A stretch of DNA of 64,000 nucleotides from Winogradskyella psychrotolerans (GTDB taxonomy: Bacteria > Bacteroidota > Bacteroidia > Flavobacteriales > Flavobacteriaceae). Below are positions 30,993 through 48,375 of the stretch, in pieces; position 1 is the first letter of the stretch, and each line of letters begins with the position of its first letter. The notes under the pieces were generated by a model. It was not told the DNA's origin. It saw nothing but the letters and a program-made list of their open reading frames with translations, and made no database searches. Location: positions 186,001 through 250,000 of the forward strand of contig NZ_JAHKPS010000028.1 of NCBI RefSeq assembly GCF_018860565.1, read 5' to 3'. Both the position numbers and the translations under genes were made by a program.

Positions 30993-31754
30993 TTATATCC
31001 CTAAAGCTTGTCCACCACCAATTTGAATAGTTTCTGCGGTAATAAACGATGCATCTTTACTTGCTAAGAACGAAACAACTCCTGCCACATCTTCTGGCTG
31101 ACCTAATCTCCCTAACATAATATTATTTGCCCATGAAGCAAAAACTTCAGGTTTAGTTGCCTTAATTTGTGCATGGAAAGGAGTATCAATGGTACCTGGT
31201 GATACTGCATTTGCTCTAATTCCATATTCAGCTAAATCTTTTGCTAATGCTCTTGTAATAGCATGAACTCCTGCTTTAGACGTACCGTAGATACCTGCTC
31301 CAGGTCCACCAGCAGTCCATCCTGCATTTGATGTATAGTTAATTATAGAAGGGTGTTCTCCTTTTTTCAAGAAAGGAATTGCTGCTCTTGATGCAAAAAA
31401 CACAGAGTCTAAGTTTAATGCCATTACATTTCTGTAAAACTCAGTTGTCATTTCTTCAAAACGAGATCTACCACCTAAACCACCTGCATTGTTTACAAGT
31501 ACATCTATTCTACCATATTTCTCACCAATCTTAGTGATATTTGAAGTGACTTGTTCTTCATTTGTAACATCAAAACCAAGATATTCAGCTGTAATTCCAG
31601 CATCTGTAAGCTGTTTTACTTTTTCTGCTCCTGCATCGTCATCAATACCATTTAAAACTACAGTATATCCATCTGTACCTAATCTTTTTGCTACTTCAAA
31701 ACCTATTCCTCCTGTTGCTCCTGTTACTATAGCTACTTTTCCTTTATTACTCAT
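30993..31754 (-). CDS. SDR oxidoreductase, probable DEH reductase
   Basis: 253 residues, classical short-chain dehydrogenase. The cofactor motif TGATGGIGFEVAKR is at the N-terminus, NNAGG at about 90, and the catalytic Ser, Tyr and Lys are in YTSNAGWT and IYGTSKAGVHAIT. SDRs in alginate loci reduce 4-deoxy-L-erythro-5-hexoseulose uronate (DEH) to KDG with NAD(P)H. The position between the uronate-type MFS permease and KDG kinases supports this; specificity itself is not visible in the motifs. Confidence 0.85.
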   Translation of the reverse strand: MSNKGKVAIVTGATGGIGFEVAKRLGTDGYTVVLNGIDDDAGAEKVKQLTDAGITAEYLGFDVTNEEQVTSNITKIGEKYGRIDVLVNNAGGLGGRSRFEEMTTEFYRNVMALNLDSVFFASRAAIPFLKKGEHPSIINYTSNAGWTAGGPGAGIYGTSKAGVHAITRALAKDLAEYGIRANAVSPGTIDTPFHAQIKATKPEVFASWANNIMLGRLGQPEDVAGVVSFLASKDASFITAETIQIGGGQALGI

Positions 31755-31780
31755 TTTTATTAATTTAATATATAATTATG

Positions 31781-33175
31781 TTATACTTTTTTTGTCACTG
31801 GTTTCACTTTTGGAATAAATATCCAAACACTTGCAACTGTTAATAATGCTAAAGTTGCTCCTATTATAAAAGCTGGTGTATAATTTCCACCGCTTGTTAA
31901 CCATGGCACTAAATAAGTTAATCCCGCAGCTGTAAGTTTAGCTGCCATACCAGAAAAACCTGCTAAAGAACCTACTGTTTTCCCACTAAAAAGATCACTA
32001 GGTAGCGTCTGAACATTTCCTATTGCTGTTTGAAAACCAAATAAAATAACCGCCATTAATATTACGGCCGTTGTAGCACCTGGATTTTGCATATCTGTAA
32101 CAGTCATATTTGTAGCACCAAGACCATTTAAAAAGTCAATGACAGCTGTTTCAATACCTAGTGGATTTGACATTGCTAATAATGCTGGTAACATAACAAA
32201 ACAACCAAGGGTAATTACCATTTTACGTGTTTTATCAACATTCCATCCTTTTTTAAGTTTATTACGTGCTAAAATACCACCATAATAAGCGCCTACCATA
32301 GCACCTGCATAAGGCACCCAGCCATATAATGCCATTGACTTAACGTCCATAGCAAAAACTTCATTTAAATAAATTGGAATCCAGAAAACAAATAACCACC
32401 ATATAGGATCGATTGCCGCTGACGCTAGTATGACACCCCAACTTTGTTTATGTCCAAGTAACTCACCTGTATTAGGGTTATACTCCTGGTCTTCTACTCC
32501 ATCACCATCAAAGTCTTCATTTTTTTGCCCTGTTAAAATATATTCACGTTCTTCTTCTGTAATCCAAGGGTGATCTTTAGGTGCTGCTTTTACTAATATC
32601 CACCAAGGTATCAACCAAAGTAAACCTGCTAAACCAATAAGAATAAATATAGCTTTCCAGCTAAAATATATTGATAAGGTTGCAATTAATGGAATGGATA
32701 TAATTCCGCCAATAGCTGCTCCAGAATTAAAAATTCCTTGTGCAAGCGCACGCTCTTTAGTAGGGAACCATTCTGCGTTTCCTTTAGTTGCACCAGGCCA
32801 GTTTCCTGCTTCTGAAACTCCTAATATGGCACGGAATATCCCAAAACTTAAAATACCACTAGCAAAAGCATGTAACGCTGTAGCAATAGACCAAACACCT
32901 ATTGAGAGTACAAATCCCATTCGTGTACCAACCCAATCGAAAATCTTACCAAATATGGCTTGTCCAAAAGCATAGGAAAAAACGAAAATAATAGAAATTA
33001 GTGCATATATGGCTTTTGTTTCATCTGCTGTGTGTCCTGGATACAAGTCACTAGCAATTTCTGGCCAAAGAACACTGAGTGAAGTACGATCAATATAATT
33101 AATAATCGTAGCGATAGCAATTAAAGTAACTACCCACCATCTTAAACCTTTTATTTTATTTCCTGCTTTTTTCAT
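31781..33175 (-). CDS. MFS transporter, hexuronate/DEH permease-like
   Basis: 464 residues, about 12 helices. NYIDRTSLSVLWPEIASDL near the N-terminus and FDWVGTRMGF are signatures of the ExuT/anion:cation symporter family. It probably imports the unsaturated uronate or DEH released by PL17. The central cytoplasmic loop carries an unusual acidic insert, NEDFDGDGVEDQEYNPNTGE (about residues 216-235), that resembles a calcium-binding EF-hand loop. It lies 9 bases after gntR and 26 before the SDR gene. Confidence 0.9.
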   Translation of the reverse strand: MKKAGNKIKGLRWWVVTLIAIATIINYIDRTSLSVLWPEIASDLYPGHTADETKAIYALISIIFVFSYAFGQAIFGKIFDWVGTRMGFVLSIGVWSIATALHAFASGILSFGIFRAILGVSEAGNWPGATKGNAEWFPTKERALAQGIFNSGAAIGGIISIPLIATLSIYFSWKAIFILIGLAGLLWLIPWWILVKAAPKDHPWITEEEREYILTGQKNEDFDGDGVEDQEYNPNTGELLGHKQSWGVILASAAIDPIWWLFVFWIPIYLNEVFAMDVKSMALYGWVPYAGAMVGAYYGGILARNKLKKGWNVDKTRKMVITLGCFVMLPALLAMSNPLGIETAVIDFLNGLGATNMTVTDMQNPGATTAVILMAVILFGFQTAIGNVQTLPSDLFSGKTVGSLAGFSGMAAKLTAAGLTYLVPWLTSGGNYTPAFIIGATLALLTVASVWIFIPKVKPVTKKV

Positions 33176-33184
33176 TTATTAGAA

Positions 33185-33898
33185 TTACGATGATTTTTTA
33201 ATGTTATAGCAATATTGGTATAACACATTAAAGTGATCTTTCATTTTTTGTTTTGCTAATTTAGGATCCTGACTCTTAATTGCCTCGTATATAGCGATGT
33301 GCTCTTCTATACCTTGATTAGCTAAATTTTTATCACACACATGATATTTTTCGAAATTTGTTATAATTTTTGGTGTTATTAACAACATAAAATTATTCAT
33401 AGTACTATTTCTACTCGCTTTAGCTATAGCTAAGTGAAATAATAAATCCTCTTGTACTGCATCTTCACCTGCAATAACTTTTTGGTTATAAGCCTCTAAA
33501 GCTTCTTTCATTGTTTTAAGATCTTCATCAGTTCTTCTCAATGCTGCTAAGCGAACTGTTTTTAGTTCTAATAAAATCCTAGTCTCAACTAAAGATTTAA
33601 AACCTGGTTCTTCTAATCTTAAAATATCATCTATCATTCCATTCATCGCAATGACACCAATATTAGCAACAAAAGTTCCACTTTGAGGTTTAGACTCTAA
33701 AAGTCCGTAGAACTCTAGTTTTTGAATAGCATCTCTAACATTACTCCTTGTCACTCCAAATTTTTCTGACAACATCCTTTCTGAGGGCAATTTGTCGCCA
33801 GGTTCAAGATTTTTAAGATTTATATGATCTCTAATTTTGGAAATGATTGTTTTTTGTAAATTTCTACCATCTGTTTTTGCTAATATTTCTAATTTCAT
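33185..33898 (-). CDS. GntR family regulator, FadR subfamily
   Basis: 237 residues. Winged HTH at about 15-75 (LEPGDKLPSERMLSEKFGVT, then RDAIQKLEFYGLLE), then an all-helical FCD domain with the metal-binding His/Asp pattern (DLLFHLAIAKASRNS and EEHIAIYEAIKSQD, MKDHFNVL). FadR-subfamily proteins of uronate pathways (ExuR, UxuR) bind palindromes of the type TGGTnnACCA. Exactly such sites occur at three promoters of this locus, making this the best candidate to bind them. It probably derepresses on binding a uronate intermediate. First gene of the gntR-MFS-SDR unit. Confidence 0.9.
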   Translation of the reverse strand: MKLEILAKTDGRNLQKTIISKIRDHINLKNLEPGDKLPSERMLSEKFGVTRSNVRDAIQKLEFYGLLESKPQSGTFVANIGVIAMNGMIDDILRLEEPGFKSLVETRILLELKTVRLAALRRTDEDLKTMKEALEAYNQKVIAGEDAVQEDLLFHLAIAKASRNSTMNNFMLLITPKIITNFEKYHVCDKNLANQGIEEHIAIYEAIKSQDPKLAKQKMKDHFNVLYQYCYNIKKSS

Positions 33899-33913: not shown

Positions 33914-33925
33914 TTGGTTAGCCAG
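33914..33925. promoter_or_regulatory. Degenerate TGGTTAGCCA site at the gntR promoter
   Basis: TTGGTTAGCCAG lies 16-27 bases upstream of the gntR start; GGCTAA at 33934-33939 mirrors its TTAGCC. It is one base away from the TGGnnnACCA consensus seen upstream of susC, PL17 and the T9SS gene, and is single rather than tandem. Possible autoregulatory site. Confidence 0.4.
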
Positions 33926-34061: not shown

Positions 34062-34985
34062 CTAATGACTAACTTCTAATTCGTAAAATTTTACTTTAGC
34101 AAAGGCTCCTTCATCTCTAGATTGAAAGTAATTACCTGCTTTAAAATAATTTTCAAATACTCCCCATTTTTTTATGTGAATACTTTCATAAGATTTATAC
34201 TCTGTATTGTTTAAAACAATAAGCATTTTACCATCTAAAACCCGAACCTCTAAAGTAAATTTCTTAAACCCAACTTCTTGTTTAAAATTAAAACCTTCAT
34301 CATCATCCCATGCGTCTTCATGTAATATTTCGGTATCTGAAGCATTTAAGTTTTTTAAGATTTTAGTTTTTACTCGTATTTTTCCTTTATCCCAATATAT
34401 TTTCAATATCGGAGGTGCATTATTATCATCTTCACCAATTAAATCGCGTTGTTCATTGGTTAACCTTCCATGAATTTGCATTATGATAACGCGATGGTAT
34501 TTACCATCTGAATCTCTAGTGACTTCTTCCATGGCAAGTTTACCTTTCATAGTTCCGCCTTGCTTAAACGTCCAATTGGTATTATTATCACCAGGCACCA
34601 TTTGCTCTCTTAATTCTGACCTCGTGTACTTTGTATTTCTGGTCTTAGAATCTGTTGGCATAGCATGAAATACAATTGCTCCTTTTGTAGAATCTATATA
34701 CATATAAGGTTTTGCAATATCCATTTTGGCAAAATTCAAAATCTCTGGCGGCTCTATTTCGTATGGCCTACCTTTTTCATTTGCCACTGGCAATGTTACT
34801 TTCCAATGACTAAGGTCTATTTTTGGTAGCTTTGCTTTTTTCTTTCTCCCTTTCTTCTTTTTCTTTTTCTTTTCAATTTTTTTATCCGATTCTGTAACGT
34901 TACTTTCCGTGTTTTGGGAAGTGACATTAGCAGATACAAATGCTATCAGTAAAAAAACTAATATTTTTTTTCGGAAATTTTTCAT
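34062..34985 (-). CDS. Polysaccharide lyase family 7 alginate lyase with a poly-Lys segment
   Basis: 307 residues. Signal peptide (VFLLIAFVSANVTSQ) without a lipobox. Residues 35-55 are an extreme Lys/Arg tract (seven Lys in a row at 39-45, then GRKKKAK). The PL7 catalytic motifs are present: YTRSELREQM (Arg), IIMQIHG (Gln and His), and YFKAGNYFQS (Tyr, Lys). It should cleave alginate by beta-elimination. Last gene of the susC-susD-PKD-PL7 unit, 13 bases after the PKD lipoprotein. Localisation is probably periplasmic or secreted. The basic tract may contact the polyanionic substrate (inference). Confidence 0.9.
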   Translation of the reverse strand: MKNFRKKILVFLLIAFVSANVTSQNTESNVTESDKKIEKKKKKKKGRKKKAKLPKIDLSHWKVTLPVANEKGRPYEIEPPEILNFAKMDIAKPYMYIDSTKGAIVFHAMPTDSKTRNTKYTRSELREQMVPGDNNTNWTFKQGGTMKGKLAMEEVTRDSDGKYHRVIIMQIHGRLTNEQRDLIGEDDNNAPPILKIYWDKGKIRVKTKILKNLNASDTEILHEDAWDDDEGFNFKQEVGFKKFTLEVRVLDGKMLIVLNNTEYKSYESIHIKKWGVFENYFKAGNYFQSRDEGAFAKVKFYELEVSH

Positions 34986-34998
34986 ATTACAATAATGA

Positions 34999-35931
34999 TT
35001 AGTCTGCTGGATATACTTTCACATTGTCAACATAAGCATCAACATCTGTAACACCATAAATAAGTATTGCAACTTCACCTGTTGCATTTGAAGTAAAAGG
35101 AATTTGAACTGTTGTAAAAACCGTTTTTCCTAAATCTTCATCTCCAACAAACATAGCTAAAGGAGCAGCATCAAAACTAGCAATGGCATCTGCACCATCA
35201 TTAAAATGACCATCTATAATTCCTCCAATGATTCTATTATCGCCTGGAGCCTGTGTACCATCATTTTTTATAGCATATTCATATTCTAGAATATAGTCTA
35301 CATTAGGTGAAACGACTATTGCTTGGTATGCGTATCTGGTATTAGGGCTTAGATAAGCACCTGCAGAAGTACTCATTGTCCATTTAGCACCTTTGGTTTT
35401 AGATCCATTATCTGAACCATCATAATTTAACCACGATCCATCAGAACTAGCATTAAAAGGATTTGTTGTACCTCCCGAGAATGTATCAAATTTCCAATCG
35501 CTAGTACCATCTGTAAAATCTCCATTTATAATTTCAGGAGTAATAGGTACAAACACATCTAAAAGTTCAACATCTATAGTTACCGTATCCGATGCTCCAT
35601 TAGCATCACTGGCTGTTAATGTCACAGGATATATACCTTCTACTGCTGGGAATGTATAAACTGGATCTTGTTCTGTTGAAGTATCTCCTCCACCAAAATC
35701 CCACAAGTATGTTGTAGATTGAAAAGAAAGATCTGTAAACTGAATAATATTAAAATTAACAGGGTCTGGAGTGTATGAAAAGTCTGCTGTTGGTAAAACA
35801 GTATCAACTTGAGAACCAGCTTCTGGTAATTCAAATTCGTATGCGCTTTCACAGCTGTTATAAGTCACAGCTGTTATTAAACACAGGAACAGTACTGTTA
35901 CTCTGTGGAAAATATTTGTTTTATTTTTCAT
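34999..35931 (-). CDS. PKD-domain surface lipoprotein (SusE/F position, glycan binding)
   Basis: 310 residues. A lipoprotein signal with Cys27 (AVTYNSCESA), a PKD domain at about 45-125 (FTDLSFQSTTYLWDFGGGDT; PVTLTASDANGASD), and a C-terminal beta-sandwich, carbohydrate-binding-like domain (INGDFTDGTSDWKFDT to VDNVKVYPAD). It follows susD, where SusE/F-like glycan-binding lipoproteins are usual. Probable alginate-binding protein at the cell surface; no catalytic motif. Confidence 0.8.
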   Translation of the reverse strand: MKNKTNIFHRVTVLFLCLITAVTYNSCESAYEFELPEAGSQVDTVLPTADFSYTPDPVNFNIIQFTDLSFQSTTYLWDFGGGDTSTEQDPVYTFPAVEGIYPVTLTASDANGASDTVTIDVELLDVFVPITPEIINGDFTDGTSDWKFDTFSGGTTNPFNASSDGSWLNYDGSDNGSKTKGAKWTMSTSAGAYLSPNTRYAYQAIVVSPNVDYILEYEYAIKNDGTQAPGDNRIIGGIIDGHFNDGADAIASFDAAPLAMFVGDEDLGKTVFTTVQIPFTSNATGEVAILIYGVTDVDAYVDNVKVYPAD

Positions 35932-35955
35932 GTCTTTAACAATTTAGTTTTTTAA

Positions 35956-37404
35956 TTAATATCCAGGGTTTTGGCTTAAAAGACCACCACTTAAATTTAT
36001 TTCTCTTGATGGAATTGGTAATAATAACTGTCTAACATTATAGTCTGGATAGTCCATTTCAGAAGCATGAGCACTTAAAACAGCATCAGCTACGCCAAAC
36101 CTAACCAAATCAAAGAAACGTTGATTTTCGAAAGCCAACTCTACACGTCTTTCTGCAAGTAAAGCCGTTTTAGTAAGTACTGAAGGACGATCTGCTTCTG
36201 CATCAAAACCTGCTCTTACTCTAACTTCCATATAAGAGTCTATTGCAGCAGCATCTGTTGTTTCAGAACCACCAGCTAAAATAGCTTCTGCATGCATTAA
36301 TAATACATCTGCATAACGTAAAATAATCCAATCGTTACCTGCTTGTTGAGGACTTCCTCCGTAAGTAGGTGGATTAGCTGTAATATCTGAGCCTTCAGGT
36401 AAAAACTTGATGACCTCACTGTATTGAACAAATGTTTTAAAAGAAGCTTCTGTTCTATTACCACCGTATAAAGCAAAATCTGCAATAAGATTATCGTTAA
36501 CTACATTTAAGCCATCTTCTCTTCCTTGGCTATTTGTCGTTGTAAATTCTGCAGAAAAAGCTTGACTTTCATTGGCATCTCCAGTCATATATTGAATAGC
36601 AAAAATAATTTCATCATTTAATTCGTCATAAAACACATCACTAAAATTATTCTCTAAAGCAAAACCACTACCCATAATATCTAAACACAATTGCGCAGCT
36701 TCTCCATAATTAATTCCTTGAGTTAAGTACACTTTAGCTAAAAGGCCTTGTGCTGCCGCTTTTGATGCTCTAGATTTATAAGTATTATCTAAAACGTCTT
36801 TTGCTTCTACTAAATCTAAAACTATTTGCTCATAAACCTGAGCTTTAGCTACTCTAGTAAACAATATTTGATCTTCTTCTGGTCCTACTACAGAAGTTAC
36901 TAAAGGCACATCACCAAACAGCCTTACTAAATTGAAATAAGCATAAGCTCTTAAAAATTTAGCTTCAGCAGCATATTTAGCTCTGTTAGCTTCGTCTGCA
37001 ACGTTAATATGAGTCAATACATCATTTGCTCTAAAAATAATTTGATACATGGATTGGTAATAATCTTCTGACTGTGCATTTGTAGCATCGATTAAATATC
37101 TATGAAAATCTGCTTTAGAACCTTCAAATGTTTTACCTCTAGTGTTATCTGTACGATGTTCCGTTAAAAGGTATTCTACTTGAACACCTCTGTTTGATCT
37201 CTCATAACTCGTATCTGTATTTTCATTAACACCTTGTATAGCGTCGTAAATCCCAATAATACCAGTTAATACATCTTGATCTGAACTGTAATATGCTTCT
37301 ACAACAATTGCAGTATCTGGTAATGGATTTAAAAATTCTTCAGTATCACAGGAAATGAAAACAAATCCTGTTACAGCAAAAATTAAATATTTTATATGTT
37401 TCAT
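35956..37404 (-). CDS. susD: SusD/RagB family surface glycan-binding lipoprotein
   Basis: 482 residues. Lipobox Cys in GFVFISCDTEEFLNPLPDT. SusD landmarks: AKFLRAYAYFNLVRLFGDVP (TPR-type helix), ILRYADVLLMHAEAIL, and the C-terminal RVELAFENQRFFDLVRFG with RQLLLPIPSREINLS. It caps the SusC channel and captures alginate oligosaccharides on the outer membrane. 23 bases after susC. Confidence 0.95.
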   Translation of the reverse strand: MKHIKYLIFAVTGFVFISCDTEEFLNPLPDTAIVVEAYYSSDQDVLTGIIGIYDAIQGVNENTDTSYERSNRGVQVEYLLTEHRTDNTRGKTFEGSKADFHRYLIDATNAQSEDYYQSMYQIIFRANDVLTHINVADEANRAKYAAEAKFLRAYAYFNLVRLFGDVPLVTSVVGPEEDQILFTRVAKAQVYEQIVLDLVEAKDVLDNTYKSRASKAAAQGLLAKVYLTQGINYGEAAQLCLDIMGSGFALENNFSDVFYDELNDEIIFAIQYMTGDANESQAFSAEFTTTNSQGREDGLNVVNDNLIADFALYGGNRTEASFKTFVQYSEVIKFLPEGSDITANPPTYGGSPQQAGNDWIILRYADVLLMHAEAILAGGSETTDAAAIDSYMEVRVRAGFDAEADRPSVLTKTALLAERRVELAFENQRFFDLVRFGVADAVLSAHASEMDYPDYNVRQLLLPIPSREINLSGGLLSQNPGY

Positions 37405-37427: not shown

Positions 37428-40400
37428 TTAAAAATTAACGTTCAAACCAAGTGACATGGTTTTAAATATTGGCGTACCTCCTCTTTGAGCTCCATAAGCC
37501 CTAGGGTTATCATCATCTACAAACTCTGGGTTGAAACCTTTATAGTCATCAGAAGTAATATAAAGTAAATTCTGAGCAGTAGCATATACTCTTAATTTTT
37601 CTATACCTAATCTAGATGTTACAGTCTCTGGTAACGTATAGCCAATATTTATATTTCTCAAAGAAAAATAGCCTGCACTTGAAATGACATCGTCTGTATG
37701 AACCCTTTGCTGTAAGAAAGAAGTGTGAGGTATGATACCTGCGTCAACAACTGCTTGTGGACTTGTAGTAGCACCTTGCCAAAATGTCCCAAAGTATTGA
37801 TCACCTATGTTTTTTACTTCAGCACCTTGACTTCCTTGAATCATAAAAGAAAAATCAAAATCAAATATTCTAAATTCATTAGATACACTCCATACAATCT
37901 CTGGATATGGATCTCCTAATATTGTCTTATCTTCATCTGTAATTAAACCATCACCATTTAAATCCTTAACAATAACATCTTCTGATGCACCATTAATAGG
38001 AATCCAAGGAGAATCATAATACTCATAAGCTAATTCTTCATCTACAACATAACCATAAAATGAAGATATTGGGTTTCCTACAGAATTGATCCATTGTGAA
38101 TTTCTACTAAAAGTATCTTCTAATAATGCCCCATCTGAATCCCCCAAACTTAGTAATTCGTTTTTGTTAGTAGATGCTATGATAGTAGTACCCCAAGAAA
38201 AATTCTCTTTAGAGATGTTTTTAGTTCTTAATTCAAACTCCCAACCACTATTTTGTACTTCACCTAAGTTTACAATTCCAGAATTAAATCCTGTTGCATA
38301 AGAAACAGGGTTTTCTAATAATAATTTATCACTTGTTCTTTTGTAATAATCTACTGATCCAGATATTCTATTATTTAAAAAGGCAAAATCTACTCCTGGA
38401 TTAAGTTCTTCTGAAGCTTCCCATTGTAATAAAGCATTTGCTATATTTAGCGCAGATACACCTGCAGTAACTCCACCTTCTGTAATAGCATTATTATTAT
38501 CTAACAATGCCAAGTAAGGCCATACATCTGTAATGTCATTACCTGTATCAAAGTTTTCACTTCCGGTAAGACCGTAACTAAATCTAAGTTTTAAGTTGCT
38601 TAAAAAATCACTATCTCTTAAGAAATTCTCTTTAGATATATTCCAACCAACAGATACTGCTGGGAAATTTCCCCATTTTGAATCTACTCCAAAAACAGAA
38701 CTTCCATCTCGTCTAAACGAAGCTGATAGTAAATATTTATCAGCGAAAGCATAGTTAACTCTTGCGAAATAACCGATCTTTCTTCTTACAAGGCTTATTT
38801 CTTCAATTTCAGAATATAAAGTTGCTCCTTCTAAGTTTTTAAGTAAATCATTAGAATACCCACTACCTTCTATTTGACTTAGGTCTGTTGTTCTAGATTG
38901 AATAGAAAAACCTGCCAAAACATCGAATTCATGATTTCCTATTGCTTTGCGGTAATTTAATGTATTGTCTGAAATAACTCTAGTTCTATCTCTATTTTGT
39001 AAACTATAACCAGCTCTACTTGCGCCATCTCCGTGGTGTTTTGTACCATCCCATCTTGTTCTTTTACGAAAATCTAATGTAACACCTAATGATGTCTTTG
39101 CCTTAAGACCATCTAAAATTTCATATTGTAAATATGTAGAACCTAACAATTTGGTATTGTACTCGTAATGCTCTCTTTCTACATATTGAGCGTATGCATT
39201 TGCATCTCCTGTAGTACGTGGTCTAGAACGACTACCGTCTCCATTGACATCAAGATTTCTTAAGTGATCTTCCTCAAAATAATCTCCTACTTTAACATCT
39301 GGGAAGTAATAGTTATCATTTGGATCGTCTTGATTTACAAACTGAAGTGACTCTTCTGTATGATATATTGGCAACCAAGGAGATTGTCTTAAAGGGTTGT
39401 GAATAGAAGTTGGTAAAGCTCTTCGTTTTGAATACGAAGGTGTGGCATTAATTCCAAATTTAAGATTTTTGGTCAATTTGGTATCCATTTTTAACCTTCC
39501 TGTAAATAACTTATAGTTATCTGTTATAACAACACCTTCGTCTTCAAGAAAACTAAGAGATGCACTAAATTTTGTATCCTTAGTACCTCCTCTTGCAGAA
39601 AAAGCATGACTTGTAATAACACCTCCATCAAAAAATACTTCTTGCCAATCTCTATCAACACCAAGTGTTGACACTAATAATTGTGCATATTGTGTGGTAT
39701 TAGAAAGTTCTCCTGTTGCAGCCAATTCTTGAGCTGCCCAACCTGAAACACTCTTCTTATAATCGTCACTTTCAAATGCTTCTTTCCATCCTGTGTAGGT
39801 ATCGTAACTAAATTTTGTTTTTCCTTCCTTACCACTCTTTGTAGTAATTAAAATTACACCGTTAGCTCCTTCACTACCATATATAGCTGCAGATGCTGCA
39901 TCTTTTAATACTTCAAAAGATTCTACATCATTCATATTTAAAGACCCAAGAAAATCAGAACTCACAACGATTCCATCTACTACTACAGCAGGTCCTGAAT
40001 CAGCAGCAATAGATCCAAAACCTCTAATCGTGATTGTTGGTGCCGCACCAGCTTCTGCTGAAGTCGCTTGAATATTAACACCAGACACTTGGCCTATTAA
40101 AGCATCATCAACTCTAGCTACTGCTATTTGATCTAAATTTTCGTTCTTTACTTTTGATACAGAACCTGTTAAATGACTTTTCTTTTGTGTACCATATCCA
40201 ACAACAACAACCTCATCTAACGTATTTGTGTCTTCTGCTAATTTTACATTAAGTGTTTTTTGGGCATCAATAATTACGGTTTGAGTTACATATCCTATGT
40301 ATGAAAATTGTATAACATCTCCACTTTTAACTTCTAATTGATAATTCCCATCAAAATCGGTCGATGCTCCTTTCGTAGTACCGACAACAATAATATTAGC

Positions 40401-40526
40401 TCCAGGAATAGGCATATTATCTGCCCCAGATGTCACTGTACCCTTGAGGATATAGCTATCCTGAGCAAAAATCATTACACTAAAAAACAGTGCAACAATT
40501 GTAATGAGTTTAACTTTTAAATTCAT
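37428..40526 (-). CDS. susC: SusC/RagA TonB-dependent outer membrane transporter
   Basis: 1032 residues. Signal peptide (TIVALFFSVMIFAQ), a CarboxypepD_reg-like N-terminal extension (LKGTVTSGADNMPIPGANII), plug domain with LDEVVVVGYGTQKKSHLTGS and the SusC hallmark FEVLKDAASAAIYGSEGANG, then a beta-barrel ending in GLNVNF. It imports alginate oligosaccharides with TonB energy. The promoter 130-165 bases upstream has three tandem TGGnnnACCA sites. Confidence 0.95.
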   Translation of the reverse strand: MNLKVKLITIVALFFSVMIFAQDSYILKGTVTSGADNMPIPGANIIVVGTTKGASTDFDGNYQLEVKSGDVIQFSYIGYVTQTVIIDAQKTLNVKLAEDTNTLDEVVVVGYGTQKKSHLTGSVSKVKNENLDQIAVARVDDALIGQVSGVNIQATSAEAGAAPTITIRGFGSIAADSGPAVVVDGIVVSSDFLGSLNMNDVESFEVLKDAASAAIYGSEGANGVILITTKSGKEGKTKFSYDTYTGWKEAFESDDYKKSVSGWAAQELAATGELSNTTQYAQLLVSTLGVDRDWQEVFFDGGVITSHAFSARGGTKDTKFSASLSFLEDEGVVITDNYKLFTGRLKMDTKLTKNLKFGINATPSYSKRRALPTSIHNPLRQSPWLPIYHTEESLQFVNQDDPNDNYYFPDVKVGDYFEEDHLRNLDVNGDGSRSRPRTTGDANAYAQYVEREHYEYNTKLLGSTYLQYEILDGLKAKTSLGVTLDFRKRTRWDGTKHHGDGASRAGYSLQNRDRTRVISDNTLNYRKAIGNHEFDVLAGFSIQSRTTDLSQIEGSGYSNDLLKNLEGATLYSEIEEISLVRRKIGYFARVNYAFADKYLLSASFRRDGSSVFGVDSKWGNFPAVSVGWNISKENFLRDSDFLSNLKLRFSYGLTGSENFDTGNDITDVWPYLALLDNNNAITEGGVTAGVSALNIANALLQWEASEELNPGVDFAFLNNRISGSVDYYKRTSDKLLLENPVSYATGFNSGIVNLGEVQNSGWEFELRTKNISKENFSWGTTIIASTNKNELLSLGDSDGALLEDTFSRNSQWINSVGNPISSFYGYVVDEELAYEYYDSPWIPINGASEDVIVKDLNGDGLITDEDKTILGDPYPEIVWSVSNEFRIFDFDFSFMIQGSQGAEVKNIGDQYFGTFWQGATTSPQAVVDAGIIPHTSFLQQRVHTDDVISSAGYFSLRNINIGYTLPETVTSRLGIEKLRVYATAQNLLYITSDDYKGFNPEFVDDDNPRAYGAQRGGTPIFKTMSLGLNVNF

Positions 40527-40628: not shown

Positions 40629-40664
40629 TGGAAAACCAAATTGGTTAACCAGATTGGAAAACCA
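40629..40664. promoter_or_regulatory. Three tandem TGGnnnACCA operators, 13-bp period (susC promoter)
   Basis: TGGAAAACCA (40629-40638), TGGTTAACCA (40642-40651) and TGGAAAACCA (40655-40664) start exactly 13 bp apart. The last overlaps two bases of the susC -7 element. Each is of the FadR-subfamily form T-n-G-T-nn-A-C-n-A or one base off. They would cover the transcription start. Confidence 0.8.
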
Positions 40665-40693
40665 AATATATACAAAATTTTGTTAAATACAAC
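40663..40693 (-). promoter_or_regulatory. susC promoter
   Basis: On the minus strand GTTG (40690-40693), a 19-base spacer and TATATTTG (40663-40670), a perfect -7. Leader of about 130 bases. The tandem operators begin inside the -7 element and continue downstream. Confidence 0.65.
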
Positions 40694-40820
40694 GTTTTCG
40701 TGAAATTTATATGTTAATTAAGCAAATGTTTAGGTTAAAATAGTGAACATTCAATTTAAAAGCTATAACCCATTACCACTCTATAAAGCTCATAGAACAC
40801 GTCTGGCCGTTTTATTGTAG

Positions 40821-41192
40821 TTATTTGTCGCCAAAATAAGACACCTCACCACCGCTTAAAAAATCTTCTCTTACTGGACTAAAAGTATCAATTAGTTCTC
40901 CTTCTTCTAGGCAAACTGCGCTATGTAGTAAGTTAGGCTCAATATATACACCATCTCCTGCTTCTACAATTTGTTTTTCACCATCAATTTCAAATTCAAA
41001 TTTACCAGAAACACAGTATGTTGCTTGCGTATGAAAATGTTGGTGTGGCGCACCTAATGCTCCTTTGTCAAATTTTACTCTTACCATCATAATTTGGTTA
41101 TCATATCCTAAGAACTTTCTAGATACTCCTCCTCCAAGTTTTTCCCATTCCATGTCTTTTGTAACAATGTACTTTTCGCTAAATCTTTTCAT
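40821..41192 (-). CDS. kdgF: KdgF cupin, unsaturated uronate to DEH conversion
   Basis: 123 residues from the ATG at 41192 (MKRFSEKYIV). The in-frame start 18 codons upstream would overlap the PL17 gene and adds an unlikely sequence. Single cupin with metal ligands in APHQHFHTQATYCVSG (His, His, Gln) and NLLHSAVCL (His), and the KdgF-typical end LIDTFSPVREDFL. It linearises 4,5-unsaturated monouronate to DEH. No signal peptide, so it is cytoplasmic. 22 bases after the PL17 gene, so co-transcribed. Confidence 0.93.
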   Translation of the reverse strand: MKRFSEKYIVTKDMEWEKLGGGVSRKFLGYDNQIMMVRVKFDKGALGAPHQHFHTQATYCVSGKFEFEIDGEKQIVEAGDGVYIEPNLLHSAVCLEEGELIDTFSPVREDFLSGGEVSYFGDK

Positions 41193-41214
41193 AATTTTTA
41201 TTGTTTTGTATGTT

Positions 41215-43500
41215 TTATTTAAAATAATAAGAACCTGACCACTCATAGTTCTTACCGTTAATTTTTAATGTGTGTTTGGCATCTTTAGCGGCATTATCAT
41301 TTGATAGTATAAAAACTCTAGAAACGCCTGATTTAAATTCCAACTCTAAAGCCGTATACGCTTTATTATCTACTACAACTTTTATAGCTTTAAATTGACT
41401 ATATGCCATGTTGGCTTTTTCGGCTACAGGATCGTAATCGCCATGCGATTCTATAATGGAAGCAAACACCGTAGATTTCGTATTTTTCTTGCTAATGATT
41501 ATTGCGGGATCTCTTCGTAAATTAAACTTAGCGTCGTTAGCACCAATTCTGGCTAAAATAATGTCATCATTATTTGAAGTTGCAGATGTTATACTGTAAA
41601 AGGTTCTATTATTTAGCCATGTAAACTGAATATGACCTGCTTCGGCTTTCCCTTGAGCTTCTTTCCATAAGTGCTGATAGCCATTTTTATCACTTAATTG
41701 CTCCAAGTTTTTTTTAGCCTTATAGTCAAAACTTGTTGAAATTATTTGCCCAAAATAATAATACGGAAAGTCATATTGGTTTTCTTTTTCTGAACTTACT
41801 TTAAAAAGATCTAGGACATATGGTTTTTTGTGTCCTGCATCTTTAATTAACAACATCGTACGATGAAAATTAGTACCTGGATAAGCATTGGTTTCTTTAG
41901 CACTCATAATTTGAACATTCGGATTTGAAGCATCGAATAAATATTTTTCAGAATGATTATTACTTCCTACTGCAAAATCATAATTAAAGTGTGAGGTTTC
42001 ATTTTGAGTGACAGTATTATGAGCAATAGTGTGCTTTGCAAAGGTTTTATTTTCCTTTAAATATCCACCACCGTTTTTTTGCTCTATGTTCACAAAACGA
42101 GACAAACCGTAATCTTGTATAACTTCCTCTCCGTCCTCATATAGTGAAAACGATAATTTATCGTAATGTCCATGACTTAAGCCTTGCCCTGTATATTTCA
42201 TTACTAATCCTACGGTATTATTATCATCGTTATACCTTAATATTCCTACAGCTCCTTCATCTCCTTTGGCTCCATCTTTTAATTCCATAGATTTTTTAAT
42301 GAATGGTTTTTCCTTACCATCCCGTAAACCTATAGCAACATCTAAGCCAGCCGCATTTAACTGCACTGCATTTTGAGCTTTTGCTACAGAGAGTAATTCT
42401 GGTTTTTGATTTCCGTAGTGATAGGCAATATCTACAACTGACACCAACGAAGAGGTGAAGTAAGACATTCCTTTTTGACCATCATTTAAAGGGAAAAATT
42501 CACCATTTGCATCTGTTAAATTTAGAAGGGCATCAACAGCTTTTAAAAGCACACCATCTTTATATTCAAAAATCTTTAATTCTGGCTTTTTATTTTGGAG
42601 TGCTTCGGCAAATATCATAAATGGATACATAGCATAACGTTGATAATAAGGACCTTCTGTATAAAACCCATCAGGAGAAAAAGGGCCATCTAAGTTTGAT
42701 AAAAAACCTGCTTTTCCGTCTTTATCATAAATATAACCACCATCATTATCTAAAGCATTATTGTCTATATCTATGTTTTTAAGTCCATATAATGCACGAT
42801 TTAATAATTCGTCATCATCCATAACTAAACCAATCATACCAACTGAAACATTTCCCCAAGTACTATGGTTGTGAATACGGTTAAAGTATTTTGGCGTTTC
42901 TATAGATAAGAAATCTGCATATGGTCTAAAAAAGCTTTTATTTAAATAGTCGCTCTGTTCTTTTGGCAACCAATCGTAAATACAATCGTAGGCTTGACTT
43001 GTATATGTTAACCAATTTGAATCGTTGAGACATTGCCAGAAAAATTTGCCTCTCGCATAAGAACGTTCTTGAGGGTGCCGATTTAAAGTTGGATATAATT
43101 TTGCATATTCTAACAACATATCTCTTACATAAATAGCATATTTTTCATCTTCTAAAAGCTGAAATAAAACACCAGCTTTTTGCATATTTTTATAGTTTAA
43201 AGTATGCTGAGTATGCGTATAACCTCCTGCCATATCTTTAGGAATTGGCACATCTATACCTGCTTTTATAGCCAAATCCACGTCTTGTTTTACAGCAGCT
43301 AAAGTAGCGTCAAAAACAGGAACATTTCGTAATTGCGATTTTATGTTAGAAACACTATTTTGGGTAAGTATTAAGTTTGGGTGACTTCCGTTTTGGTTAG
43401 CGGTATTGCTTTCAGAAACAGAACTACGTTCTTCTTTACAAGAGAAATTAGAAAACAAAAAAACGATTGCAAGAAAAGAGAAAATAAGTTGATTTTTCAT
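41215..43500 (-). CDS. Polysaccharide lyase family 17 oligoalginate lyase
   Basis: 761 residues from the ATG at 43500. Lipoprotein signal with Cys after FLFSNFS. N-terminal alpha-toroid with HTQHTLNYKNM, NRIHNHSTWGNVSVGMIGLV (catalytic Asn/His region) and YTEGPYYQRYAMYPF (catalytic Tyr); C-terminal heparinase II/III-like beta-sandwich with QGLSHGHYDKLSFSLYEDG and KHTIAHNTVTQNE. Family enzymes act exolytically on oligoalginate to release monouronate, probably here in the periplasm. It has its own promoter with two tandem operators close to the start codon. Confidence 0.94.
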   Translation of the reverse strand: MKNQLIFSFLAIVFLFSNFSCKEERSSVSESNTANQNGSHPNLILTQNSVSNIKSQLRNVPVFDATLAAVKQDVDLAIKAGIDVPIPKDMAGGYTHTQHTLNYKNMQKAGVLFQLLEDEKYAIYVRDMLLEYAKLYPTLNRHPQERSYARGKFFWQCLNDSNWLTYTSQAYDCIYDWLPKEQSDYLNKSFFRPYADFLSIETPKYFNRIHNHSTWGNVSVGMIGLVMDDDELLNRALYGLKNIDIDNNALDNDGGYIYDKDGKAGFLSNLDGPFSPDGFYTEGPYYQRYAMYPFMIFAEALQNKKPELKIFEYKDGVLLKAVDALLNLTDANGEFFPLNDGQKGMSYFTSSLVSVVDIAYHYGNQKPELLSVAKAQNAVQLNAAGLDVAIGLRDGKEKPFIKKSMELKDGAKGDEGAVGILRYNDDNNTVGLVMKYTGQGLSHGHYDKLSFSLYEDGEEVIQDYGLSRFVNIEQKNGGGYLKENKTFAKHTIAHNTVTQNETSHFNYDFAVGSNNHSEKYLFDASNPNVQIMSAKETNAYPGTNFHRTMLLIKDAGHKKPYVLDLFKVSSEKENQYDFPYYYFGQIISTSFDYKAKKNLEQLSDKNGYQHLWKEAQGKAEAGHIQFTWLNNRTFYSITSATSNNDDIILARIGANDAKFNLRRDPAIIISKKNTKSTVFASIIESHGDYDPVAEKANMAYSQFKAIKVVVDNKAYTALELEFKSGVSRVFILSNDNAAKDAKHTLKINGKNYEWSGSYYFK

Positions 43501-43507
43501 ACAAAAT

Positions 43508-43530
43508 TGGTTTACCAAATTGGTTTACCA
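43508..43530. promoter_or_regulatory. Two tandem TGGTTTACCA operators, 13-bp period (PL17 promoter)
   Basis: TGGTTTACCA at 43508-43517 and 43521-43530, identical and 13 bp apart. A degenerate third copy (AAGTTAACCA, 43547-43556) lies on the same 13-bp lattice over the -33 element. The pair covers the -7 end, the transcription start and the region up to 8 bases from the start codon. Confidence 0.8.
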
Positions 43531-43558
43531 ATATACGTGTTTTTTGAAGTTAACCAAA
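43528..43558 (-). promoter_or_regulatory. PL17-kdgF promoter
   Basis: On the minus strand TTTG (43555-43558), 19-base spacer, TATATTGG (43528-43535; one mismatch to TAnnTTTG). The leader would be about 20 bases. An alternative perfect -7 (TAGTTTTG, 43580-43587) lacks a -33 and is less placed with the operators. Confidence 0.55.
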
Positions 43559-43701
43559 AAAATGTATTAACAATTAACACAAAACTATATTAATTTGCTC
43601 TCTTATTCTTAATTTGATTTTAGAACATGTAATTAGAAAGGCTCAAAAAACCTATAATTACACCAAATAAAAACGACAATCTTAGTGCTTAAAGTCAACG
43701 A

Positions 43702-44748
43702 CTATTTATTAGGCGAAGTTCCTTCTCCTACTGTTGCTTCTTTAAACCAAACTTCAGCATAGCATCCATTTTCGTATTGCTTTGCTATATCTCCATTATA
43801 AATTTGGGCTCCTGTACTCCAAACCATATTATCCTCAGGCTTTTTACCGTTGGTTTGATTATATGCTCCTTGTTTAAAATAATTTATTTCTCCTGCATAA
43901 GCATTTTCACGTTCTACTCCATCACGACCTATAGAGGCATATAAAGTCCAAATTTGTTGAGGAATAGCTTCTTTTGTTGTAAAATCTGATTTTAATAAAT
44001 TTTTAGTAAACGTTTTGGTGTCGTGGTTTTCACTTGTAAAGGTTAAATACATTATACCTTTATAAACATTTACTTCATAACTAAATTCTTCACCTAAGGC
44101 AATCCCATCTATTGGTTCTACAGGATAGGTCTCTGGACTTGTACCAACAACCGACATATCATAACCCCAAACCGCTGTAGAATAATCCCATCTTTTAGAA
44201 TTATCACCTGCCGTATTGATTTCATAATTCCAAAAAACAGAACCTTTTGTGTGTCCCGGAAATTTTTTATAATAGATTTTTAAAGGTTCATTTTCATGAC
44301 CTTCATCACTATGTATTTGACCAACAACTACAGAATATGATGCTCCAACTCTAGCATCTCCTGAAACCGAAACATGTTGCACTTTTAATGTTCCTGTTAA
44401 TTTACCTCCGGTTTCGGGCACCCAATGTTTTTTTTGCCCTAATTCTGTTCTGGTGTTACTTGAAGTACGAGAAGTAATACCTGAATTAGGTGTTTTATAC
44501 ACTACCCAATCCCTATTGTTTTCGTTTTCTACATAGAAAAAATCCTTTTTATCATAGCCAACTAAATCTTTAACACTAGTACCATCACCTAAAAGAATCT
44601 TCCATTGATCCATAAACGGAATAACATCACTTGGGTATTTTTTTACTATTTCAGTTGTTTCTTCAGCTTTTATTTCTGATGATGCTGTTTCGTTCTTACA
44701 CGATACAATTGTTAAAAGTATAGCGAAGGTGAATAGTGTTTTTTTCAT
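43702..44748 (-). CDS. Polysaccharide lyase family 7 alginate lyase, lipoprotein
   Basis: 348 residues. Lipobox Cys in LLTIVSCKNETASSE. PL7 motifs: SNTRTELGQKKHW (Arg), YSVVVGQIHSDEG (Gln, His) and INYFKQGAYNQTNG (Tyr, Lys). Probably surface- or periplasm-anchored endo-acting alginate lyase. Motif variants differ from the other PL7 protein of this locus (SELREQ and YFKAGNYFQ there), so the two belong to different subfamilies. 24 bases after PL6. Confidence 0.93.
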   Translation of the reverse strand: MKKTLFTFAILLTIVSCKNETASSEIKAEETTEIVKKYPSDVIPFMDQWKILLGDGTSVKDLVGYDKKDFFYVENENNRDWVVYKTPNSGITSRTSSNTRTELGQKKHWVPETGGKLTGTLKVQHVSVSGDARVGASYSVVVGQIHSDEGHENEPLKIYYKKFPGHTKGSVFWNYEINTAGDNSKRWDYSTAVWGYDMSVVGTSPETYPVEPIDGIALGEEFSYEVNVYKGIMYLTFTSENHDTKTFTKNLLKSDFTTKEAIPQQIWTLYASIGRDGVERENAYAGEINYFKQGAYNQTNGKKPEDNMVWSTGAQIYNGDIAKQYENGCYAEVWFKEATVGEGTSPNK

Positions 44749-44772
44749 GTATAGAATAATTTAGCAGTTAGA

Positions 44773-47079
44773 TTAATACATCAGCGTCATAACTAAGTTT
44801 TCTTCTGTCTTAATTTGCCCTGAATTGATAAGGGTGTTGTTTGACTCAACATTGTTTTTTGCTCCCCAAAGAATGGAAACAAATTTCACCTTATTGTTTT
44901 TAAAGGTATTATTATTAATATTCACATTTACAATTCCGTTATGGTTTAACAATCTTTGGTTTTTCTCTTCTGATCCACTATTTGTAAAGGTACTGTTAGT
45001 AATTAAAAGATTTCCTCCAATAGTAGACTCGTCGTAACCACCTCTATAATAATCAACAACATTTTGTTTTACATTATTAAAAGTACAGTTATCAATGGTT
45101 AGATACTCTGTGTTATAATCTCCTCTGTCGTTTGTTTCTTCAGATAATTCGATACCATTTTCACAATCAGCAATTGTAGTGTTTTTGAAAGTGATCTCTT
45201 CTGAAAACGCTTGTTTGTATACTCTTAACGCGTAATTAAAATTGCTGATTTCAGAATCTATAACTTCTAAACCAAAATGATTAGACATATTTTCTTTTAA
45301 ACTGGCAAATGCATAATTTGAAGTGTTACCTATTAGCTTAATGTTCTTAACTGTTAATTTCCCATAAGGGGTTAAAGAAAAAGCAGGTGTATTTGCAGCT
45401 CCCTCGTGTACTATTTCGGTATTACCTTTAGATTGAATAGTGATGGTTTTATCAATAATTAAAGATTCTGAAATCTTAAAAACTTCAGCATTTAATTCTA
45501 AAATATCTCCATTTCCTGCGTCTTTAAGTTTAGCCACTAATTCTGAAGCATTTGATACACTATGCGTTTTAGGGTCTCTAACTTCTACTTCATTTGAATA
45601 CCAATCTGCACCGTAATTGGCTTTATTCAAAATATCTAACTTGATATTTTCTACATCTAAAATCGCCCCCACCTGATTTGACTTACCTCTTGAATTTCCT
45701 AATACATCTTCAGTGATTGTTTCAAAATCAAAACCGTTATAAACCTCAACATCACTAAAACCAGAAACTGGAGCAGAAATACCTGAACCTATAGGCGTTA
45801 GTGTTAATTTTTTTGAAGTTAATCCGTCTCTTTTAGAAAAATCTACTCCATTATTATCTATAATATTGCTTGCAAAAGTTACACCATCAGCTTTATCGTG
45901 CTCAATAATTGGATTAGCATCACCAACAGAATTATAGATAACATTATTTACAACTTCTGTTCTTAATGGTCTAGCGGAACGAATTTCTGATTTAGGTAAT
46001 ACATCAGCTTGCGAAATATTAGTACCAACCCCAAACTGCCAAGGCGAATCTGAATCTATAAACGTATTATAAGCAACAACCACATCTGTTACCTGATTAT
46101 ACCTATTTAATGGCGATTTTGGTATTCCGTTCATAATTGCTATTGGACTTCTAAAATTCTTTCCTTTTATTTTATAAAAAAGGTTATTTGTAATCCAATG
46201 CCCTGTATTAATAATTCTTATTCCACCATATTGGTCGTTTACACCATCACCAATAAAATAATTACCATCAACAGTAACATAGTTTCCATGACGTGTTACT
46301 ACAGAGCCTTCACTTTTATAAAATACATTATTTTTAATGATGTTGAAGTTAGTTTTGCTTGATATAATTTCAACTTCACCATTGCATTCTTCAAATAAAT
46401 TATTGGCAATTGTTGTATTACTTGGACTCATAGATGTAAAACTGCTTCCTAATTGAATGGTTTCACCTCTTGCACCACCTTTTCTAGGTCTTGGCCCAAA
46501 ATGATTGTTTATAATGTTATGATAGTTTCTTATACTTTGATTCCCTTTAAGATCTACCCTAACTGTTGGTCCGCCATTAGTTTTACCAGCAATATAACAG
46601 TTACTTAATTCATTTTGCTTTCCGTAAAACTGCACCCAAATATTATCTTGGTCTCGTTCTAAATTATTAAAATCCAGAATAACACAATTTGTAACTTTAG
46701 AATGATTTGCAACCTCTTTTGCACTAGTTCTGAATGCAATTACGTTAGTTTTAGGAGAATGACCGTTTCTAAAAAACAATCCACTAACCTCTAAGTGATT
46801 TCCGCTTAGTTCTAAACTGGAAACACCTTCAATAAAAACCTCTCCTGCTGTTTCTGCTTTTAAGATAATTGGGTTTTCTTCTGTACCATTTCCTAAAAAT
46901 TTAATTTCAACATCTTTCCAAACTCCATTAGCTAAAACAATTTCATCTCCAGCTTTGCAGTCTTTAATAGCAGCGTTTAATTCTTCTAGATTAGACACCT
47001 TAATTAGCTTAGAGATTTTAGGCTTACTACAAGCTGTAAGTAATACTAATAGACAAATAATGGTTGTTATTTTTTTCAT
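44773..47079 (-). CDS. Polysaccharide lyase family 6 alginate lyase, two-domain
   Basis: 768 residues from the ATG at 47079 (MKKITTIICLLVLLTACSKP). Lipobox Cys at the end of the signal. Right-handed beta-helix of the PL6/chondroitinase B type: KGGARGETIQLGSSF, ECNGEVEIISSKTNFN with the catalytic Lys, and SVVTRHGNYVTVDGNYF with the catalytic Arg. A second beta-helix domain begins near residue 505 (VSNASELVAKLKDAGNGD). Length fits the two-domain PL6 group. It cleaves alginate, often polyMG or polyG, outside or in the periplasm. Confidence 0.92.
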   Translation of the reverse strand: MKKITTIICLLVLLTACSKPKISKLIKVSNLEELNAAIKDCKAGDEIVLANGVWKDVEIKFLGNGTEENPIILKAETAGEVFIEGVSSLELSGNHLEVSGLFFRNGHSPKTNVIAFRTSAKEVANHSKVTNCVILDFNNLERDQDNIWVQFYGKQNELSNCYIAGKTNGGPTVRVDLKGNQSIRNYHNIINNHFGPRPRKGGARGETIQLGSSFTSMSPSNTTIANNLFEECNGEVEIISSKTNFNIIKNNVFYKSEGSVVTRHGNYVTVDGNYFIGDGVNDQYGGIRIINTGHWITNNLFYKIKGKNFRSPIAIMNGIPKSPLNRYNQVTDVVVAYNTFIDSDSPWQFGVGTNISQADVLPKSEIRSARPLRTEVVNNVIYNSVGDANPIIEHDKADGVTFASNIIDNNGVDFSKRDGLTSKKLTLTPIGSGISAPVSGFSDVEVYNGFDFETITEDVLGNSRGKSNQVGAILDVENIKLDILNKANYGADWYSNEVEVRDPKTHSVSNASELVAKLKDAGNGDILELNAEVFKISESLIIDKTITIQSKGNTEIVHEGAANTPAFSLTPYGKLTVKNIKLIGNTSNYAFASLKENMSNHFGLEVIDSEISNFNYALRVYKQAFSEEITFKNTTIADCENGIELSEETNDRGDYNTEYLTIDNCTFNNVKQNVVDYYRGGYDESTIGGNLLITNSTFTNSGSEEKNQRLLNHNGIVNVNINNNTFKNNKVKFVSILWGAKNNVESNNTLINSGQIKTEENLVMTLMY

Positions 47080-47112
47080 AAATGGCACTATTTTATTTCA
47101 TATATTGTTAAA

Positions 47113-47145
47113 AAGACAAAAGCCTTTTGTTTTTAAAAGGCTTTT
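47113..47145 (-). terminator. Hairpin between the T9SS gene and PL6
   Basis: AAAAGCCTTTT (47118-47128) and AAAAGGCTTTT (47135-47145) form an 11-bp stem with a 6-base loop, 23 bases after the stop of the upstream gene. On the minus strand the T run is interrupted (GTCTTTTT), so it may be a partial terminator; PL6 has no TGGnnnACCA sites of its own. Confidence 0.6.
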
Positions 47146-47167
47146 TTAATAGTTATTAAAGCTTAGA

Positions 47168-48118
47168 CTACTCAATAATTATCTTTTTAATTGTCGTATT
47201 TCCGTTAGCATTAATTTGTAAAAAATAAACACCGTTATTTAACATAGAAACATCTAAACGGTTATTGTTTAATCCTTTTTGAGAAAGTACGTTCTTTCCT
47301 AAAATATCATAAACCGCTACAGAAGCCACTTCTAATGTATTTGAATCTATATTAATATAATCTTTTGCTGGATTAGGATACACTTTAACCCCTTGAGCAG
47401 AGAATTCTCCTACTGATAGTGACTCATTAGTTAAAGCTACATAATCTATTCTCGTTTCTTGATCACCTGCAGACCAAGTATAACATCTTGTAATATCTTC
47501 TGGAGCATCATCACAATCATTATCATCATTAGGAGTATTTGGTCTACCTATACCTCTCGCCAAAATTGCTATACTTGTTTCATCTCCTGTATTAAACGTA
47601 AATTCAGCAAGCGTATAATCATCATTACCTGGATAAGGTTCTACAATAGTAGCTATATTATTTGCTACATTTTCTACCACAGTAATATCAGAATACCCAA
47701 ACCCATCAGATGGCACTTCTACAGGTGCAGCATAATAGGTAGGCACATAACCGTCTGTATAACCTGTTCCTTTTAAAACACGTATTTCTAATTCACTTGT
47801 TCCATCTTCACCACCACTAACTCTATAACGATACGTTAATTTATAATCTGTATTTGCTAAAACTGCAATTTCTTGATACATTAAATCGGCTTCAAAATTA
47901 TCAAATTTAATGGCATCATTACCTGGTGTTTCATCAATATTTTCAGAAGATTCCGCTTGATCTCCTAATGATTTATTCATCCATCCCGAACAAGAACAAT
48001 CACTACCAGAAATTTTAGGTATTTTATCAAAATCGGAATTCAAAACCACAGGGTCTTGAGCAAACATTGTACTACTAGCCAAAGCTAGAATAAAACTAAA
48101 AAGTAAATTTGTTTTCAT
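47168..48118 (-). CDS. T9SS-secreted protein in the alginate locus, possible glycan binding
   Basis: 316 residues. Signal peptide (LALASSTMFAQ), a Cys-containing N-terminal region (SGSDCSCSGWMNKSLGDQ), a beta-sandwich resembling carbohydrate-binding modules (YKLTYRYRVSGGEDGTSELE), and a T9SS type A domain (VKVYPNPAKDYINIDSN, ending IKKIIIE). No lyase motif. First gene of the unit ahead of PL6 and PL7, with tandem operators at its promoter, so it is co-regulated with alginate use. It may bind alginate at the surface; the exact role is unknown. Confidence 0.82.
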   Translation of the reverse strand: MKTNLLFSFILALASSTMFAQDPVVLNSDFDKIPKISGSDCSCSGWMNKSLGDQAESSENIDETPGNDAIKFDNFEADLMYQEIAVLANTDYKLTYRYRVSGGEDGTSELEIRVLKGTGYTDGYVPTYYAAPVEVPSDGFGYSDITVVENVANNIATIVEPYPGNDDYTLAEFTFNTGDETSIAILARGIGRPNTPNDDNDCDDAPEDITRCYTWSAGDQETRIDYVALTNESLSVGEFSAQGVKVYPNPAKDYINIDSNTLEVASVAVYDILGKNVLSQKGLNNNRLDVSMLNNGVYFLQINANGNTTIKKIIIE

Positions 48119-48352
48119 AATAATGTAATTTAATTGTGGTTAATATTTAATGTGTAACTTATTAAGTTTCTTTTGTTGTATTCACCTACAGGTTAAGTTT
48201 AATTTCCTATTAGAAAAATTAATATCTAATTATTAACGCCCCATTATTCATCATCTACCACAACTACATTCTTATCTAAATACAAAAAAAAAGCACTTTA
48301 GAAACAACCTATATCGAAGCTAAGTTCCACCTCATTTAATACTTTTATATTT

Positions 48353-48375
48353 TGGTAAACCAATCTGGTAAACCA
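48353..48375. promoter_or_regulatory. Two tandem TGGTAAACCA operators, 13-bp period (T9SS-PL6-PL7 unit)
   Basis: TGGTAAACCA at 48353-48362 and 48366-48375, 13 bp apart. The upstream copy overlaps two bases of the -7 element, the same register as at susC. Confidence 0.8.

Follow-up and report, generated by a model that had tools for sequence, protein, structure and literature searches.

Alginate promoters of Winogradskyella and its relatives carry tandem operators on a 13-bp lattice, probably bound by an AusR-type GntR repressor

Three promoters in the alginate locus of Winogradskyella psychrotolerans were found to carry TGGnnnACCA sites repeated every 13 bp, and judging from the sequence these arrays are probably the operators of an AusR-type GntR/FCD repressor encoded at 33185-33898, whose dimers would line up next to one another across the -7 element and the start. 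The analysis was built on a 64,000-nucleotide stretch of contig NZ_JAHKPS010000028.1 (positions 186,001 to 250,000), referred to here as the window (Table 1). We re-read all seven sites proposed by a first-pass annotation and confirmed their positions and the exact 13-bp intervals at the three promoters; the first and third susC sites, TGGAAAACCA, are imperfect palindromes. On both strands of the window, TGGNNNACCA gave 19 matches at 13 distinct places, each full palindrome being scored twice, where 3.8 +/- 2.2 matches were expected, and none of 100 shuffled windows reached 19. The operator sites are genuine and occur far more often than chance would allow. The other exact TGGNNNACCA matches in the window (17361, 28595, 46567, 54305, 54358) fell within listed open reading frames and were taken as chance occurrences.

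We then searched the whole genome (3.9 Mb, 33 contigs) for TGGNNNACCA-N3-TGGNNNACCA. This tandem occurred at only four promoters, namely the three arrays of the window and C28:221259, and the reversed-pattern control gave 0 matches genome-wide. The fourth tandem lies 32 nt upstream of a gene of 877 aa in which Pfam recognized Chondroitinase-B (PL6-like) and T9SS sorting domains; its family suggests alginate as the substrate. As far as the families tell, all four exact tandems stand before alginate-type lyase or uptake genes, and random scatter of tandem sites through the genome was rejected. Relaxing the search to single copies of TTGGTNNACCAA with at most one mismatch was of no use genome-wide (265 matches against 261 for the reversed control). 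Among the matches listed in a literature search on the operator motif, we found no paper on it.

Table 1 Coordinates of the operators, promoter elements and genes discussed in the text.
Feature	Coordinates	Strand	Remarks
Triple operator array, susC promoter	40629..40664	-	Sites at 40629, 40642, 40655
Double operator array, PL17-cupin	43508..43530	-	7 bp upstream of ATG at 43500
Double operator array, T9SS-PL6-PL7 unit	48353..48375	-	
Lone operator TGGCTAACCA	33915..33924	-	16 nt upstream of GntR gene ATG
-7 element TATATTTG of susC	40663..40670	-	Two bases in common with the array
CGAAAACGTT box, putative site of a LacI-type regulator of central carbon	40691..40700	-	susC promoter, near -33; gap to the -7 element exactly 20 nt
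GntR repressor gene, FadR/FCD subfamily, AusR-type	33185..33898	-	Pfam GntR 3.6e-19, FCD 1e-25
susC-type TonB-dependent receptor	37428..40526	-	First gene of the susC-susD-PKD-PL7 run; Pfam
susD, PKD protein, PL7-type alginate lyase	34062..37404	-	susD 35956-37404; PKD protein 34999-35931; PL7-type 34062-34985; Pfam
PL17-type lyase (Alginate_lyase + Hepar_II_III_C) and cupin	40821..43500	-	Pfam
T9SS-tailed protein, PL6-type and PL7-type genes	43702..48118	-	T9SS-tailed 47168-48118; Chondroitinase-B/PL6-type 44773-47088; Alginate_lyase2/PL7-type 43702-44748; Pfam
MFS transporter, SDR reductase, PfkB kinase	29900..33175	-	Downstream of GntR gene; Pfam
Fourth tandem-operator gene: PL6-like lyase (BACON, T9SS domains)	L006 7594-10227, contig 28	-	Own double operator; far from the PUL
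Quadruple arrays on the 13-bp lattice	L107 573-621; L109 4940-4988; L064 13292-13340		

The PL17 gene probably starts at the ATG at 43500, 7 bp from its array, rather than at the mechanically called TTG start at 43518, and the label 'KdgF-like' for the cupin that follows is taken from the first-pass annotation. The MFS, SDR and PfkB genes probably share one unit with the GntR gene, as their close spacing suggests an operon. The window also contains a full-length LacI gene (28877-29920, plus strand) flanked by two PfkB kinase genes, and a short LacI protein (26500-27018, minus strand) directly downstream of KDPG aldolase, consisting of a LacI helix-turn-helix and a stub of the sugar-binding domain. 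This short protein has 171-172 aa, and because its length is nearly equal in the one relative examined (L052 15848-16363), it is perhaps a real mini-LacI rather than a broken gene.

To characterize the spacing, we analyzed 80 named loci that encode a protein closely related to the window's GntR regulator (the best 80 of 425; 1.59 Mb). Exact TGGTNNACCA pairs no more than 60 bp apart were separated by 13 bp (82 pairs), 26 bp (16) or 39 bp (1), and by nothing else. With one mismatch allowed, the same three distances accounted for 143, 44 and 6 pairs, and 14 other distances had 1-3 pairs each; pairs at 12 or 14 bp were absent from these loci even then. In the 80 loci, none of five permuted control palindromes gave more than one pair at 13 bp. 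Arrays, defined as lattice chains of at least two sites with at most one mismatch each, were found in 75 of the 80 loci and numbered 99 in total (58 double, 38 triple, 3 quadruple). The loci without an array were L089, L094, L110, L127 and L130, of which L089, L110 and L130 are short stretches. One array (L126 16462) consists of two imperfect sites with no assigned gene and may be a chance occurrence. The 13-bp step was common to unrelated promoters (susC, PL17, T9SS, PL7 and GntR), and the 134 linkers between sites varied, among them ATC (43), ATT (33), AAT (17), GTT (15) and GAT (10). A wider scan with a free gap of 0-30 matched 80 of 299 genomes of the family. Among the matches listed, 75 were forward rows, of which, counted by eye, 64 had a spacing of 13 bp, 3 of 26 bp and 8 another spacing (12, 21, 24, 28, 36 or 37), so other pairs do exist; two of the pairs listed were at 12 bp (G193, G029).

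The arrays were also found to be joined to the promoter in a fixed manner. Read on the gene strand, the promoters are TATATTTGG (susC), TACTTTTGG (T9SS-PL6-PL7) and TATATTGG (PL17, with one T fewer), and these sequences bear out the overlap of the upstream-most site with the -7 element that had been noticed at first pass. We take TAnnTTTG to be the consensus -7 element of Bacteroidetes. Of 92 oriented promoters of the relatives, many of which are orthologous and hence not independent cases, 87 had TAnnTT ahead of the first TGG (74 of 74 for susC), against a background of 559 of 45,719 TGGs (1.2%). The five promoters without TAnnTT are all PL17 promoters with one T fewer, like that of the window. 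None of the 78 exact sites outside arrays showed the fusion, so it is a property of arrays only. The sequence TATATTTGG followed by 13-bp repeats could serve as a ready signature for alginate regulons in marine bacteria.

The GntR protein at 33185, which the first-pass annotation had named as the probable binder, likely binds the arrays, supported by its FCD-GntR domains, its co-occurrence with the tandem and a site at its own promoter in many relatives. With no more than one mismatch, 45 of the 80 loci had such a site in the 80 nt upstream of the regulator gene, five of them as a double array; in a control stretch it was found in 0 of 80. Of 40 genomes chosen for having the tandem, 37 encode an AusR-type protein (E <= 1e-60); of 40 lacking it, one does. 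The tandem genomes without a close regulator were G040, G083 and G154, of which G040 and G083 fall outside the rows whose spacing was listed; in G094, one of the 37, the regulator is only 52% identical, and G019 has a regulator at 79% identity, yet no exact tandem. The window protein is 75-85% identical to 22 aligned relatives. Its GntR domain begins at residue 14, and His154, His199 and His221, invariant in all 23 sequences, presumably fit the FCD metal site. The nearest solved relatives by sequence were 9jpj (annotated as 'pyruvate dehydrogenase complex repressor', and as DhdR in the fold search), 6az6 (a Streptococcus GntR) and NanR. An AlphaFold model of moderate quality (pLDDT 79, pTM 0.61) retrieved FCD-GntR proteins in a fold search, the first PDB matches being NanR, McbR and DhdR bound to DNA (at low whole-chain TM-scores of about 0.45).

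Other readings of the arrays were weighed against these data. Near-identical copies are frequent within arrays, and duplication of a 13-bp unit alone would give equal spacing at each promoter without cooperativity; the dimers could then bind independently, with extra copies merely raising local occupancy and the spacing a relic of duplication. We consider this unlikely, though it is the most credible of the alternatives, since the same spacing at non-homologous promoters with diverged linkers argues for selection on spacing. The lack of 12- or 14-bp pairs in the 80 loci also speaks against it, but the wider scan did list the two at 12 bp.

A quite different division of the arrays would place the operator unit across neighboring copies, as ACCAnnnTGGT (ACCANNNTGGT), so that the apparent arrays would be shifted sites. 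Most arrays do contain this palindrome, with 112 of its 152 exact copies lying within arrays, but the 40 copies outside are at background (controls 32-51), and we rejected it as the operator unit, a reading we hold very improbable. The operator unit is TGGTnnACCA and not ACCAnnnTGGT, because of the two it is TGGTnnACCA alone that occurs as a solitary copy at promoters of the regulator. Nor is it at all likely that a different regulator, such as one of the LacI proteins at 28877-29920 or 26500-27018, binds the arrays. LacI proteins bind palindromes, and these two are encoded near the arrays, but it is the GntR protein that co-occurs with the tandem and often has a site at its own promoter. In addition, TKGT/ACMA boxes mark sites of the FadR subfamily in the available part of a survey (PMC4494728).

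Repression by the GntR protein could proceed as follows. One dimer would bind each TGGTnnACCA palindrome. A dimer on site 1, the site fused to the -7 element, would hide this element from RNA polymerase, while sites 2 and 3, which would span the start point and transcribed region, would take further dimers. Successive centers on the 13-bp step are about 44 A and about 86 degrees apart, so that neighboring dimers would lie on rotating faces yet close together, as tightly packed as 12-bp sites can be with a single base between them. We infer that neighbors make contact and bind with cooperativity, which would shut the promoters off tightly and make induction sharp; the contact is suggested because the exact spacing is kept at unrelated promoters. 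An alginate breakdown product would act as effector and loosen the repressor, and the lone site TGGCTAACCA at the regulator's own promoter would provide weaker autoregulation. The binding, the transcription start points and the adjacency of the dimers belong to the same inferred scheme.

The susC promoter may also receive a second input. An exact CGAAAACGTT box was found in 23 of the 92 promoters of the relatives, 21 times at the same place as in the window and twice one nucleotide nearer; by promoter class it occurred in 19 of 74 susC, 4 of 5 T9SS and 0 of 13 other promoters. In the W. psychrotolerans genome there were 16 matches at 15 places (one place is palindromic), with no overall excess (50 matches for the reversed control). 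A search of 60 genomes for CGAAAACGTT with a -7 element 15-40 nt downstream likewise returned 30 matches (control 24), 16 of which shared the 20-nt gap. The case for the box was therefore made from place and gene content, not number. Nine of the 15 places precede fba, pdhA, pyc, gap, icd, pfkA, fbp, a lacI/susC pair and the alginate susC, the pyc and icd calls being cut at the locus end with scores below the curated cut-off; for the remaining six, no central-carbon, lacI/susC or alginate susC gene was assigned. One motif thus stands before both glycolytic and gluconeogenic genes in this genome. Two genomes of the same genus, judged by protein starts, repeat the box at pfkA, fbp, gap and lacI/susC, and both have further boxes at other genes, for example acyl-CoA dehydrogenase; G301 additionally has it at icd and alpha-amylase. 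The full palindrome was found at the lacI/susC pair (CACGAAAACGTTTTCGTG) and at the amylase gene of G301, the remaining sites keeping only CGAAAACGTT.

We extended the search to fbp and gap in the family (41 genomes each, best 30 loci each). A box with at most one mismatch lay within 250 nt upstream of fbp in 13 of these 30 loci, 12 times at the usual place, and of gap in 12 of 30, 11 times at the usual place; no box was found inside either gene (0 of 30 each). The gap from box to -7 element is 19 nt at fbp and 20 nt at the alginate susC, and at gap the box lies 9-10 nt before the -7 element, between -33 and -7. We hypothesize that the box mediates activation at fbp and the alginate susC but represses gap, in the manner of E. 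coli Cra as presented in the part of a LacI regulon review available (PMC4052901), and the shared CGAAAACGTT suggests a Cra-like second input at the alginate susC. The one pointer to a LacI protein that might bind the box is the palindrome at the lacI gene. A text search of PMC4052901 gave no occurrence of Bacteroidetes or Flavobacteri-, a literature search for a LacI regulon of pfkA, fbp or gluconeogenesis in Bacteroidetes or Flavobacteri- found no paper, and one for the box itself returned only unrelated papers among the matches listed. From the box one may suspect a global regulator of carbon metabolism in Flavobacteriaceae; such a regulator would be of greater importance than the operators themselves.

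Taken further, and much more tentatively than the assignment of the operators, the alginate promoters could be two-input switches of fixed geometry. Repressor dimers would polymerize on the 13-bp lattice from the -7 element by a contact other than that of NanR, while a Cra-like LacI protein, not previously described, at CGAAAACGTT near -33 would couple alginate uptake to whichever way central carbon is flowing and would switch on uptake and fbp jointly. We regard this combined scheme as possible but doubtful.

Among known regulators, the available part of the FadR-subfamily survey (PMC4494728) lists UxuR, PrpR and others with a 2-nt spacer and ExuR with a 3-nt spacer. The GT-2-AC half-site spacing of the window operators resembles that of UxuR and PrpR, and the first-pass statement that ExuR and UxuR both use TGGTnnACCA-type palindromes holds for UxuR and not for ExuR. 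The survey includes no FadR-subfamily regulators from Bacteroidetes, and the word 'tandem' is absent from its text.

E. coli NanR offers a solved precedent. In the passages of PMC8012715 available, three NanR dimers bind cooperatively to the three repeats of (GGTATA)3, binding is weakened by longer spacers, and cooperativity requires a 32-residue N-terminal extension. Given this precedent, a 13-bp step is less odd for dimers than the first-pass annotation had claimed. Like the window protein, NanR, first in the fold search, is an FCD-GntR repressor, and its sugar acid effector, as given in those passages, was counted as a further likeness. There, NanR dimers sit about half a turn apart, unlike the 13-bp lattice here. 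The window protein, unlike NanR, has no long N-terminal extension before its DNA-binding domain, and because its GntR domain starts at residue 14, any contact between dimers would be made differently. The strict 13-bp rule of the family could provide a clean system for studying cooperation of GntR dimers without NanR's extension.

AusR of Zobellia galactanivorans, whose original study is reportedly that of Dudek et al. 2020 in NAR, is presumably itself of the FCD type. In the passages available from citing papers, AusR is a GntR repressor of the Zobellia alginate PUL and is reported to bind operators present once, twice or three times (PMC7874173), with consistent accounts of its role in alginate regulation in PMC8286568 and PMC8073546, and the Zobellia system comprises a TonB receptor, SusD, a PKD protein, PL7 and PL17 (PMC8073546). 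The AusR passages of these three papers contain neither the family-wide lattice nor the CGAAAACGTT box. The window protein combines a GntR winged helix with an FCD domain; as in the accounts of AusR, its gene lies within an alginate PUL with SusC, SusD, PKD, PL7 and PL17, and the window operators are single (33915), double (43508, 48353) and triple (40629). The kind of system thus appears to be already known from those accounts of AusR, and the window would be a further case, likened to it by domains, gene surroundings and operator copy number.
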